This document shows, piece by piece, positions 2,077 to 19,045 of a stretch of 41,666 nucleotides of DNA. The position numbers and the translations under genes were made by a program. Each line of letters opens with the position of its first letter. Position 1 is the first letter of the stretch. Below the pieces are notes generated by a model. It worked only from the letters and a program-made list of their open reading frames with translations. It was not told where the DNA came from and ran no database searches. The stretch comes from an uncultured Spirochaetota bacterium (GTDB lineage Bacteria; Spirochaetota; Spirochaetia; Treponematales; Rectinemataceae): positions 1-41,666 of the forward strand of contig CAIJMU010000021.1 of assembly GCA_903821875.1 (NCBI GenBank), written 5' to 3'.

Positions 2077-2853
2077 CTATTCCTTCTTGGCCGATTCCGC
2101 CTTCTTCAGGTCGATGGGGGTGATGGTGGGATCGCCGGGCACTGGCTTGGTGCCGATCCTGAGAATGGAGACGCTGCGCTCGTATCTGTTCGTCGCCTTC
2201 TCGCTGTTGAGCGGGTCGGTGATCATCTGGCCCCGCAGGACAAAGTTGTAGAGCTGGATTCCGGGAGGCAGTTCGAGCTGGAGTTCGTAGCGGCCCGGGC
2301 CAACCTCTTCCATCGTGTGCACAAAGGGATCCCAGTTGTTGAAACTGCCGGCGACGGAGATGTTTTCGCCAGGCCTTCCCTTGAAGAGGAAGCGGGCGGT
2401 TTTTCCATCCTTTGCGAGAACCTCATAGATGCCTGGCAACTCATCCGAAAGCCGGGGGACATTGACGAGCGACACTGTCAATCCGGCTCCGCTGATCGTG
2501 GCGCGCCGCGGATTGCCGGGGTCTGCGATCCAGGCTCCATCGATGACCAGGCGATAGGCCAGGGGCGACTGGGAGTTAGGCGGAATTTTCCAGGCCAGAA
2601 TGAAGATGCCCTTGTCGTTCCGCTCGAAGGGATGGATCTTCACAAAGTCTTCATGGGCAAAGGCTGCACCGACAAAGCGGTGCACGCCTCCGAGGGTCAG
2701 GATCAGGTAGCCATCGTGGATGCTGGCTTCTTCGGCGTGGTCCAGGTTCTTGAGGTGGATGTGGAGGGGCAGCGAATCGATGGTCACCGCCGGGGCAAAG
2801 GGCGCGACGAGGAGGAGGGCAAGCGTGAAGGCTAGGGTGTGCGCTTTCATCAT
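2077..2853 (-). CDS. Secreted protein with tandem glycogen-binding-type (CBM48/E-set) domains
   Basis: The product is 258 residues from ATG at 2853. The longer frame from 2874 is unlikely because AAGGGA lies just upstream of the 2853 ATG. Residues 1-22 form a Sec signal peptide (MKAHTLAFTLALLLVAPFAPA). The C-terminal half carries a clear AMPK/CBM48 glycogen-binding fold: ISVAGSFNNWDPF, then GRYELQLELPPGIQLYNFVL and a final MITDP. The N-terminal half repeats the pattern more weakly (VGAAF..., AYRLVIDGAWIADPGNP), so two copies of the fold are likely. CBM48 modules bind alpha-glucans or act as beta-sandwich interaction modules; no catalytic domain is present. The gene is divergent from the FlcA-like gene across about 90 bp. 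A periplasmic or envelope location follows from the signal peptide. The exact ligand is unknown. Confidence 0.75.
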   Translation of the reverse strand: MMKAHTLAFTLALLLVAPFAPAVTIDSLPLHIHLKNLDHAEEASIHDGYLILTLGGVHRFVGAAFAHEDFVKIHPFERNDKGIFILAWKIPPNSQSPLAYRLVIDGAWIADPGNPRRATISGAGLTVSLVNVPRLSDELPGIYEVLAKDGKTARFLFKGRPGENISVAGSFNNWDPFVHTMEEVGPGRYELQLELPPGIQLYNFVLRGQMITDPLNSEKATNRYERSVSILRIGTKPVPGDPTITPIDLKKAESAKKE

Positions 2854-2945
2854 GTCTCTTTCCCTTATCGGCAAATGGCCCAGGCACTAATAGTGGTTTC
2901 CCTCAACTCAAGCTGCCATATGCCGTTAATATAGGCGGACAACCT

Positions 2946-5900
2946 ATGCCAAGCATCAAGGACCTCGATCGATTCAGGCGCGACCTCACCGCACTCGCCC
3001 GCGAACCGGAGGTTCTTACCCAGTGGGGTGAGATTTCCGATCCCTACCCCGAGCCCTCAGACTCTCCGGCCAAGGTGGAATCCCCTGCCAAGACCGCCAC
3101 CCCTGCCCAGGGGGCGGCCACAGAGCTGGATAGCGACCTCGCCGACCTCCTTGGCGATTTTTCACCCTCCCCCGCGCGCGATGCCCCCAGGGGTGAAAGC
3201 CCGGGCTTTGATGACGACCTCGCGGCCCTCCTCGGACCCACGGGCGATGACGAGGAGCCTGAGTCTCCCCCCGATTCCGGTGGCGCCACCGAAGGCGATG
3301 ACGGCTTCGGTGACTTTCTCGCCTCCCTCGGTTCGGAGGATGGCGCTGCCTCCAGCAGCCCTTCTTCAGGAGCCGATACTGCCGACGATTTCGGCGACCT
3401 GTCCGAAAGCAGCTTCGATGAAGCCGAGGAGCCAGGGGACGAGTCTCCGCTCGAGGGGGAATCTGACTCCGCCTCCGAGGCCGGCGGCTTTGATCTCGCT
3501 TCCTTTGCCGAATCGCTCGATGAACTGGGGGAAGCTGAGCCGGAAGTCCCGGCATCCCCGACAGGGGAGGCTCCTTCCGAAACCGGACTCCCTGAAGACT
3601 TCGATGAGCTATCGAGCTTCGGGGAAGAGCTCGCTGAAGTACCCGACCCTGCTTCGGGCAGCGGTGACGGGCTCCCCGACATGGATTTTGACCTCGGCGG
3701 TCTTGATGACCTTGGCAGCCTTGGTGACCTCGGTACCGAGGCGCCAGCCGAAGAAGCCGAAATCATGGACACCGAGACAGTGGAAACTGATTTCGCTGGG
3801 GCCGGCGCCGAGGACTCGGCTGTCGATGGGCTGGGCGAACTTGGTGAGCTGGGTGAATTAGGTGAATTAGATGAACTGGGTGAACTAGGCGAACTAGGCG
3901 AACTAGGCGAACTGGGTGAGCTGGATGAGCCTGAGGAGCTTGGAGCTTCCCGTGCGGGAACCGATGCCCAGGAGATCCCTGACTTCGATGAACCTGGGCC
4001 AGGTGCCAAGCCCCCCTCAGGAAAGGCGCCGGCCAAGGCCGTCGCAGGCAGCTCTCCCATCGCAGCTCCGGACCTGCCCGAGATGGACGGTTTCGACTTT
4101 TCTTCGCAGGAAGCCGAGGGCAGCTCCGACGGTTTCGATTCCTTCAGCTTCGGTGAGCCCGGCGAGGCGCCCCTTGCAGGCGATGCCATCGACCGTGAGC
4201 TCGCCAACCTTGGCGAGGGCGGCTCGGGCACAGCCACCTTCAATCTGGAAGGGAGCTGGGGCGGCTTCGGCGGGACCGACCAGGAAGATGGGTCGCGGCC
4301 TCCTGCAGCCATCTCCATGGTCAGGGCGAAGACCGAAGAAAAGCCGGTAAAGCCCCTTTCGCTGACCGAAGCCCAGGTCGACCGCCTCCAGGACTGCCTC
4401 CTTGAGCTGCCCCTCAACCTGAGGCTCTGCATCGAGGACGTCATCGCCAACGAGAAGGGCAGCGAGGCCCAGCGCAACGACCTCGTCCTCCTCCTGGTCG
4501 AGAATGCCGCCCCCAAGGACATCGCGAACCTGGCCGGCAAGATCCTGAAGCGCCGCATTTCCATCCCCGACGACTACACCCATCGCACCGGCGCCGCCTT
4601 CCTCCAGGAAAAGGGGAGCATCGGCTATCTCTTCATCCACACGATACTGCCTTTATTGCGGACGGCCATCCTCGTGTTCATTGTGGCGGGTACCCTGGGC
4701 TACCTCGGCTACCGTTTCGTGTGGCGTCCCCTTGCAGCAACCTCCCTGTACCGCAGCGGCTACGAGGCCATTGCCCAGGGCCGTTACCCCGAGGCGGAAA
4801 AAGACTTCGCGCGCGCTACCGAGATCCGCGAATTCATTCCCTGGTACTACCGCTACGCCCAGGCCTATGTCGCCAAGCGCCATTTCCTCGACGCGGAGAA
4901 CAAGTATTCCGACCTCATCCGCCGCCATCCCGGCGAGAAGCAGGGCGCCATGGAATGGGCCAGCCTCGAGCGCGACCAGCTCAAGTACAAGGAAGCCATC
5001 ACAATACTGAACAAGCATGTCCTGGACCGGGAGGCCCTCGACAAGGACGCCCTCCTCCTCCAGGGAGACATCTTCCTCGAATGGGCCGACGAGATTCCCG
5101 CCCGCTTCGAGGACGCGAGGAAGCGCTTTGCCACGCTGATCACGAACTACGGGGCCAAGGACATCTATCTCGAGCGCATGCTCATGTACTTCATGCGCGT
5201 GGACCAGAGCTCCGAGGTGATGCCGCTCAAGACCCGTTTCATGGCCATGCCAAAGCCACCGCTTTCGGCCTCGACCCTCGCCGAACTCGGGGGCTACCTC
5301 ATTGGCAAGGACAAGATCGAGGATGTCCACGAGATCCTGAAGCTGGCCCTCGAAGAGGATATACGGCTTCCCGAGACGCATTGGCAGTTTCACCGCTACT
5401 ACCGGACCGTGGGCGAAGGAGCGGAGGAGAAGAAGGCCCTCGGCAACGCCATCGTCGGTTTCGAATCCCTTCCCGCCCTCGGGAAGCGCCGCCTGGGCAT
5501 GTACCTTGAGGCCCTCATCCGACGCGGCGACCTCCTCATAGGCGACCAGGAATACCTCCTGGCCGACGAGGATTTCGGCAAGGCTGCGGTGGAGTATGAA
5601 AAGGCCCTCGATCTTGGGCGCCTCCAGCGTAGCCCGGCCTTCGGCCGCGCCTATGCCGGCCTTGGAGACGTCGCCTACCTCGCCAAGGATGACCTGACCG
5701 CTGCTGGCGAACTCTATTCCCGGGCCGAAAAGGCAGGCTGGGACAATCCGGAAATCCGCTATCGTCGCGGCTTTATCGCCTATCGCGCCTCCAGCTACGG
5801 CGACGCCCTTTCGCAGTTCTGGCAGTCCTGGCAGGGCGGGAACGAAAGCCCCTGGCTTTCCTGGGCCCTCGCGAACACTTTTTTCAGGCGCCAGGACTAC

Positions 5901-16870: not shown

Positions 16871-17896
16871 TTAGCCATTCGCCTCAAATTCCAGTACGAC
16901 CTTCGTCCCCATCCCTCGCTCAATTCGTATTGTTCCAGCCAGCTGCTGGGTCAGCCCCTGGATAAGCTGAAGCCCAAAGCCCGTGGAGTTCCCGAATGAA
17001 ACGGATTCAGGAATGCCGTTGCCATCATCCTGGATGGAAATGAGCACATGGAAACCTGTCATTGTGGCCGATACGGAAATCTTTCCGCCATCTCTTCCCT
17101 TGAAAGCATACTTCATGATGTTGGTGATCAGTTCATTTATGATTATGCCCAGTGACTGGAGGCGTCTGGCATCAAGAATGAATTCCTGGACGGTCATTTC
17201 TACTTTCACCCCTGTGCTGGCAGGGAAGTTGGATACAATCTCTTCAATCAAGGCTGGCAGATAGTCCCTGATCGATAGTTCGGTAAAGTCAGGCGACCGA
17301 TACAGCCTGTCGTAGAGAAGCGCCATGCTTTGGAGTCTGGCATTTGCGTCCTCCAATGCTGTTACAGCCGATGGCTCCTTGACCGTCTGGGCTTGAAGGG
17401 ACAAAAGACTGCTGAGGTTGTTCATGTTGTTCTTTATGCGATGATGGACTTCCTTGAGAAGGATGCTTTTTTCAGAGAGAAGCGATCGGTTTGCTTCTTC
17501 TGCCTGCATTCGCTTTGATATATCGGTAAAGCTGACTACGACATGCTGGAGCTTTCCGTTCTCCATGTGCGGGATGGCGTCTACATTGAGCCATACGCGA
17601 TTGTGAGTGGTAGGACGAAATACTCCCATGACCACATCCCTGACCGGAGCGAGGGTATCGATGGCTTGTACTACGGGGTGCGTCTCACCCGGGAAGGGTG
17701 AACCGTCTTCGTGTATCACGTTCCAGTCCGGATCGAAGGATGTCTTGCCGAGAAGCTGGTCTTCGGAAAGCCCGAGAAGCTCAAGGGCCTGGGGGTTGGC
17801 CATCAGGATTTCAGCACGCGGGCCTTGGATGAGAACACCAATATCCATGTCCCAGACCAGGGACCGGAACCTTTTTTCGCTGTCCACCAATGCCAC
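16871..17896 (-). CDS. PAS-HisKA_2-HATPase portion of a sensor kinase split by an amber codon
   Basis: This 341-residue frame directly continues the frame of the upstream coding region (17897-19045) after one TAG. It has no Shine-Dalgarno sequence of its own before the GTG at 17896. It starts in a PAS linker (VALVDSEKRFRSLVWDMD), followed by a PAS domain (about 10-130) and a linker ending FTDISKRMQAEEANRSLL. A HisKA_2 dimerisation domain follows with the phospho-acceptor His in LKEVHHRIKNNMNNLSSLLSLQ (near 153), then a HATPase_c domain with N-box NELITNIMKYAF, G1 DDGNGIP and G2 GFGLQLIQGL. All catalytic motifs look intact, so the kinase half is either a separate protein, the end of a read-through product, or a recent casualty of a nonsense mutation. 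Confidence 0.8.
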   Translation of the reverse strand: MALVDSEKRFRSLVWDMDIGVLIQGPRAEILMANPQALELLGLSEDQLLGKTSFDPDWNVIHEDGSPFPGETHPVVQAIDTLAPVRDVVMGVFRPTTHNRVWLNVDAIPHMENGKLQHVVVSFTDISKRMQAEEANRSLLSEKSILLKEVHHRIKNNMNNLSSLLSLQAQTVKEPSAVTALEDANARLQSMALLYDRLYRSPDFTELSIRDYLPALIEEIVSNFPASTGVKVEMTVQEFILDARRLQSLGIIINELITNIMKYAFKGRDGGKISVSATMTGFHVLISIQDDGNGIPESVSFGNSTGFGLQLIQGLTQQLAGTIRIERGMGTKVVLEFEANG

Positions 17897-17899
17897 CTA
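17897..17899 (-). other. In-frame amber codon separating two halves of one sensor kinase
   Basis: The minus-strand reading is ATG AAA GCT GCC TAG GTG GCA TTG GTG GAC, giving TAMKAA-stop-VALVDSEKRF. The linker between consecutive PAS domains in this family is typically KxAExALxxSExRF, so the amber sits where a Glu is expected: a single G-to-T change from GAG. Reading through the codon would give one protein of about 724 residues, REC-PAS-PAS-PAS-HisKA_2-HATPase. Confidence 0.9.
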
Positions 17900-19045
17900 G
17901 GCAGCTTTCATCGCGGTGACGTCAAGGGCTGTTCCGAGGCTCCGTGTCGGCCGTCCATCGGCTCCGAATTCGACAAGCCCGTTCGCAAGAATGTGATGGA
18001 CTGTGCCATCAGAATGGATGACACGGTATTCAAGTGTCGGAAAGCTTCCGTCTTTCAGGTTGCCGTCCAGGCTGTCCGTGAATTTTCCGACATCATCCGG
18101 ATGAACAACCTTCAGTATTGTTTCGGGTTTTCCGTCGTAGGTCTCGGGGGCAAGCCCATAGATCCGATACATCTCCTTTGACCATCGGGTCGTATTGGAA
18201 ACCATATCCCATTCCCAACTCCCGATCCCCGCTATCCGTTGGGCTTCCGCGAGGTTCCTTTCGCTTTTTAAAAGCTCCTCCTCGATGCCCTTGCGTTCGG
18301 AGACGTCAAGGCAGAGCCCAGTCATCCGGATGGGCTTGCCGTTTTCGTAGTAGGCCCTTCCTGTGGCTTCAATCCATCGGATCGCCCCGCCAGGAAGCAT
18401 GATGCGATACTCGTTTCGCAGGTTGCTTCCCTTGTCGATCGCTTCCTGTATCTTGCGCGAAGCCTCTTCCCGGTCATCGGGGTAGACAGTCTTTGTCCAT
18501 GCCTCAATCCCTGCTTGCGCGTCGTTTTCCATTCCGAAGAGCGCAAAGAACTCAGGCGACCAGGTGAAGCTATTGTTGGCGATGTCCCAATCCCATATTC
18601 CCGCTCGGCTGGATTCCAGCGCCAGACCAAGATTCTCTTTTTTCAGCCAACTCTCCCTGTGTGCCTGATGCAAGCTGAAAGCCAGCCTGATGGAGGCGTC
18701 AAGGACAGTGATTGGGGAGTTCTTCAGAACATAGCCGTAGGAGGCGACCTTCCACGTCTTCTCGATGACTTCGGGTTCAGAATGGCTAGATAGGAAGACG
18801 ATGGGGATGTCATGGCCTGTGAGGATGGTTTGTGCGGCTTGTGTCCCGTCGATGCCTTTCCCAAGGTTGATGTCCATCAGGATAAGGTCGAAGGCAGCAG
18901 CCCCCTGGATGGCTTCCACAGCCTTTTCTCCGGAGCTGACCGTTGTAACGCCGTAGCCATACTTTTCAAGTTGCATTTTCTCGCTCATGGCGAGAAGGGA
19001 CTCGTCTTCAACGAGAAGGATGGTCTTTTTATTCAGTGGACCCAC
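17897..19045 (-). CDS. Response-regulator receiver plus two PAS domains (N-terminal portion of the split kinase)
   Basis: The likely start is GTG at 19045, with GGAG ten bases upstream. The frame is open to 19240, but those 65 residues (LHIPGPFKTWENRENPCYRQ...) do not look like the family and lack a domain. From 19045 the product has a receiver domain (LLVEDESLL, phospho-acceptor Asp58 in LILMDINL, Lys in YVLKNSP), then two PAS domains with PAC segments. The first is AGIWDWDIANNSFTWSPEFFALFG..., ending LDVSERKGIEEELLKSE; the second is IGSWEWDMVSNTTRWSKEMYRIYG..., ending ALDVTAMKAA at the amber codon. Without the kinase half this would be a receiver-PAS protein with no output. Cytoplasmic; no membrane span. 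Confidence 0.8.
   Translation of the reverse strand: MGPLNKKTILLVEDESLLAMSEKMQLEKYGYGVTTVSSGEKAVEAIQGAAAFDLILMDINLGKGIDGTQAAQTILTGHDIPIVFLSSHSEPEVIEKTWKVASYGYVLKNSPITVLDASIRLAFSLHQAHRESWLKKENLGLALESSRAGIWDWDIANNSFTWSPEFFALFGMENDAQAGIEAWTKTVYPDDREEASRKIQEAIDKGSNLRNEYRIMLPGGAIRWIEATGRAYYENGKPIRMTGLCLDVSERKGIEEELLKSERNLAEAQRIAGIGSWEWDMVSNTTRWSKEMYRIYGLAPETYDGKPETILKVVHPDDVGKFTDSLDGNLKDGSFPTLEYRVIHSDGTVHHILANGLVEFGADGRPTRSLGTALDVTAMKAA

Follow-up and report, generated by a model that had tools for sequence, protein, structure and literature searches.

An in-frame amber codon in the linker between the receiver-sensor and kinase halves of a Spirochaetota histidine kinase gene

How a sensor kinase gene comes to be divided by a single in-frame TAG, and what is then made from it, is the question raised by one gene in the window (the whole 41,666-nt stretch of DNA that was analyzed, from a draft genome, Spirochaetaceae-like judging by its relatives, that comprises 4.68 Mb on 193 contigs). 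A sequence-only reading had described two same-frame halves parted by one TAG, and this holds in the assembly, as the 725-codon frame contains one interior stop (TAG 17897–17899, minus strand) and no frameshift (Table 1).

Domain layout, linker and relatives

In the Pfam comparison, the matches above cut-off were Response_reg (REC) and two PAS_3 domains upstream of the TAG and PAS, HisKA_2, and HATPase_c downstream of it, in line with the earlier impression that the domains on both sides look intact. Inspection by eye showed the Asp and Lys of the receiver as well as the kinase H, N, and G boxes. With REC, PAS, HisKA_2, and HATPase_c above the curated cut-offs, the gene has the domains of a HisKA_2 sensor histidine kinase with an N-terminal receiver; however, the single polypeptide of such a kinase is interrupted by the TAG under translation table 11. 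The G+C content was 54% and 52% in the two gene halves compared with 62% for the window, and the gene may have been acquired recently.

Table 1. Coordinates of the divided kinase gene and of the interior stops in three sister paralogs
Feature	Position	Strand	Remarks
Whole frame	16871–19045	minus	GTG 19045 to stop at 16871; open also upstream of 19045
Upstream half, REC-PAS-PAS protein	17900–19045	minus	382 codons; start GTG 19045, SD GGAG
In-frame TAG	17897–17899	minus	Glu column in 98/118 homologs; K-A-A-(stop)-V-A-L-V-D-S-E linker continuous across TAG
SD-like AGGTGG and 5-nt spacer	17888–17898	minus	AG of AGGTGG within TAG; precedes GTG 17887
Downstream half, PAS-HisKA_2-HATPase_c kinase	16871–17887	minus	Alternative start GTG 17887; start aligns with ATG of L144:2289
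Lone interior TAG, after REC	L215:1669		Genome G017
Lone interior TAG, inside REC	L216:1588		Genome G004
Lone interior TAA, inside REC	L219:1922		Genome G015

The TAG had been placed at a conserved Glu position, and the tblastn alignments with relatives agree. Among the 118 distinct homologous sequences, the Glu at this column was encoded by GAG in 57 and by GAA in 41; these are deduplicated counts, and 101 homologs carried Glu when duplicates were kept. The neighboring columns of the homologs read K-x-A-E-x-A-L-x-x-S-E, which the window gene matches on both flanks of the TAG. Because the V-A-L between the TAG and GTG 17887 fits this linker motif and fused relatives exist, including two of similar length (L220, 746 aa, and L036), the ancestor of the window gene was most likely a fused kinase. 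No close ortholog of the window gene was found, the best full-length relative being approximately 43% identical; the same split was seen in no ortholog, and the TAG was traced in no other genome.

Two stand-alone PAS-HisKA_2-HATPase kinases were also found among the relatives. One, L144:2289-3317 in G008, a genome of a sister genus, matches the downstream half over its full length at 60% identity, and its ATG aligns exactly with GTG 17887; the other (L200 in G004) is 54% identical. In G001, which is from the same genus, a REC-PAS-PAS gene stops in this linker and is followed by unrelated sequence with no kinase. Thus, each half is found among relatives as a gene of its own. Behind this REC-PAS-PAS gene (L213, G001:C158:18000-22500, positions 2634–4000), approximately 125 bases of a DedA-like gene are repeated, the DedA-like gene itself lying 1.2 kb further on; this reflects either a local duplication or a chimera of the assembly.

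A tree of the downstream half was built for the ancestral state (fused or stand-alone) and was not decisive, as the architecture changes many times; one further reason is that a paralog on contig C61 of the same genome is homologous only in the kinase core. A CCTAGG shared upstream of the L144 start was considered as a trace of common ancestry and dropped, since the upstream alignment score was reached by 32% of shuffles.

Decoding of the TAG

The earlier reading had raised amber readthrough at some rate, which would yield a long kinase beside a short receiver-PAS protein, and had proposed a search for an amber-suppressor tRNA or pylT/pylS. Both sides are indeed intact and in frame, and across bacteria in general, in-frame stops that show a low dN/dS have been interpreted as sites of readthrough (PMC7918605). 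In this genome, however, the decoding machinery is not that of a recoded amber gene: release factor 1 is present (500.6 bits), PylS is absent, and no CTA-anticodon tRNA was found among the recovered tRNAs, a set that is incomplete (it lacks tRNAs for Ser and Ile). TAG terminates 132 of the 484 called genes in 658 kb of the genome. The direct test for interrupted genes covered the same 658 kb (approximately 14% of the genome), and the window gene was the single UAG-interrupted gene in it, where recoding would call for several. There, 32 gene ends with coding continuation in the same frame were checked singly; only the window gene has its stop inside a homologous domain chain, and all the others look like ordinary neighbors with their own starts. 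No internal stops were found in the best 150 ABC-ATPase and best 150 receiver domains of six family genomes, these being best-scoring matches and so biased to intact copies.

On these grounds (RF1, no PylS, no CTA tRNA, no other interruption, and stop-free ABC and receiver domains), TAG was treated as an ordinary stop codon in this genome. Amber reassignment or suppression was rejected in view of the decoding machinery and of the tests across 658 kb and the six family genomes, and readthrough, for which several tests were negative and no positive evidence was obtained, is very unlikely. A tRNA-Sec gene was found at L110:315-405 (G000:C124); as it is present, the genome probably makes selenoproteins, and some of its in-frame TGA codons should be genuine.

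A plausible second start behind the stop

The claim that the downstream half has no second ribosome-binding site was not confirmed. An AGGTGG is located 5 nt before GTG 17887 (CCTAGGTGGcattgGTG), and the succession of AGGTGG, five bases, and GTG 17887 puts this start 9 nt behind the TAG (CCTAGGTGGCATTGGTG), so that a second start with an SD stands near the first stop as in a translationally coupled split pair. The predicted anti-SD duplex is −5.8 kcal/mol at GTG 17887 and −5.6 at GTG 19045, the gene's own start, with a median of −5.0 for the called starts of the genome. Because approximately 17% of internal start codons match its SD score, the SD of GTG 17887 appears usable and not remarkable. 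A third possibility, which the sequence-only reading missed, is that the kinase half is translated on its own from GTG 17887. As the second piece has its own usable start, no special decoding of the TAG is needed. A consensus search ahead of the kinase half retrieved no sigma-70 promoter inside the gene.

The second start also bears on a functional fission kept by selection, in which a receiver-sensor and a kinase would be made from one mRNA by coupled initiation and act in trans. Short stop-to-start gaps like that of the window pair are known in operons, and for E. coli a small peak of gaps between +9 and +12 nt is reported, with 203 pairs that make up 7% of the unidirectional ones; against this, reinitiation is reported to be lowered at +13/14 nt (PMC10666635). 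The intact domains and the relatives that carry both halves as separate genes also speak for such a fission, whereas the same split is found in no ortholog.

Age and probable origin of the stop

Three sister paralogs contain true interior stops (Table 1). These lie at unrelated positions, and two of them break a domain, a pattern that would be expected of sporadic nonsense mutations. The idea that TAG-interrupted kinases cluster in this family was rejected, as the other flagged stops (G001:C158, G008:C95, G003:C92, and G015:C447) are gene ends, which leaves L215, L216, and L219 as the only true interior stops among the flagged kinases. In the window gene, TAG accounts for 101 of the 226 one-step nonsense paths, and 32 of the 191 nonsense-prone codons are in linkers; a TAG in a linker is therefore not improbable.

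The ratio of nonsynonymous to synonymous changes (N:S) was determined for the kinase core, polarized by an outgroup. It was 32:26 in the window lineage and 23:34 in the intact C61 paralog, a difference that is not significant (chi-square of approximately 2.5, calculated by hand). Unconstrained sequence has an N:S of roughly 3:1, and the window lineage is far below this. As to further damage of the kind that a pseudogene may show, there was no second stop and no frameshift, and the difference in N:S was not significant. As the N:S excess is small, non-significant, and far from roughly 3:1, the TAG appears to be young relative to the gene. The earlier proposal of a recent nonsense mutation or a sequence error fits the undamaged frame, an N:S indistinguishable from that of the intact paralog, and the scattered stops of the other paralogs. 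The kinase cores of the C61 paralog (G000:C61:2565-3137, L140) and the window gene (16886–17458) are 78% identical in DNA and the preceding PAS domains are unrelated, a pattern suggestive of domain swapping or of gene conversion between kinase paralogs.

The N:S of the kinase-half lineage could also be counted, with its non-significant difference from the paralog, in favor of fission under selection; however, constraint that predates the mutation accounts for the same data, and we regard a selected fission as a tentative reading on the unlikely side. A split that is both maintained and regulated, in which one mRNA gives the receiver-PAS protein, the kinase from GTG 17887, and a little full-length readthrough kinase, is most improbable; if true, the stop would set the ratio of tethered to free kinase.

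A consensus or assembly error, with a sense codon in the organism and one intact fused kinase, would agree with the single-base change, the fully conserved linker, the lack of further damage, and the draft state of a genome in 193 contigs. There is no direct sign of it, and because no other interrupted gene occurs in 658 kb, such errors are not common in the assembly; we consider an error unlikely.

We hold it to be probable that a fused kinase recently underwent a nonsense mutation and that translation terminates normally at the TAG, with the kinase half possibly still made; this estimate spans both outcomes of a real nonsense mutation (nascent fission or early pseudogene) and overlaps with fission kept by selection. 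Starting from a fused REC-PAS-PAS-PAS-HisKA_2-HATPase kinase, the gene would recently have gained a nonsense codon in the PAS2-PAS3 linker. Ordinary termination at the TAG would leave the 382-residue REC-PAS-PAS protein as the main predicted product, and some of the kinase half would probably still be translated from GTG 17887, by its own SD or by termination-reinitiation. The gene would then be either in nascent fission into a receiver-sensor and a stand-alone kinase or an early pseudogene.

A split that is both real and fixed would be a clear snapshot of a multidomain kinase breaking into two proteins at a linker by one base change, which is possible because a usable start already stands just behind the break. 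Otherwise, it would be a nonsense mutation of a common kind, in a genome whose kinases are many and redundant.

Bacterial genes that are otherwise constrained but contain an in-frame stop have been widely reported (PMC7918605). As in the window, a single stop is found in an otherwise intact, formerly constrained gene; unlike the window TAG, the reported stops are conserved between orthologs from at least two species. Translationally coupled gene pairs (PMC10666635) share with the window pair a short stop-to-start distance with an SD between; the window pair, however, arose inside one gene, and its coupling is a candidate read from sequence. The L144 kinase shares its start position and the identity given above with the downstream half, whereas it stands alone after prfC with no REC-PAS gene in front. 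The fused REC-PAS(n)-HisKA_2-HATPase kinases of Spirochaetota (L220, L036, and others) have the same domain order and linker motif, and a similar length if the TAG is read through, and they differ from the window gene in that no stop interrupts their frame in the linker that precedes the last PAS domain.
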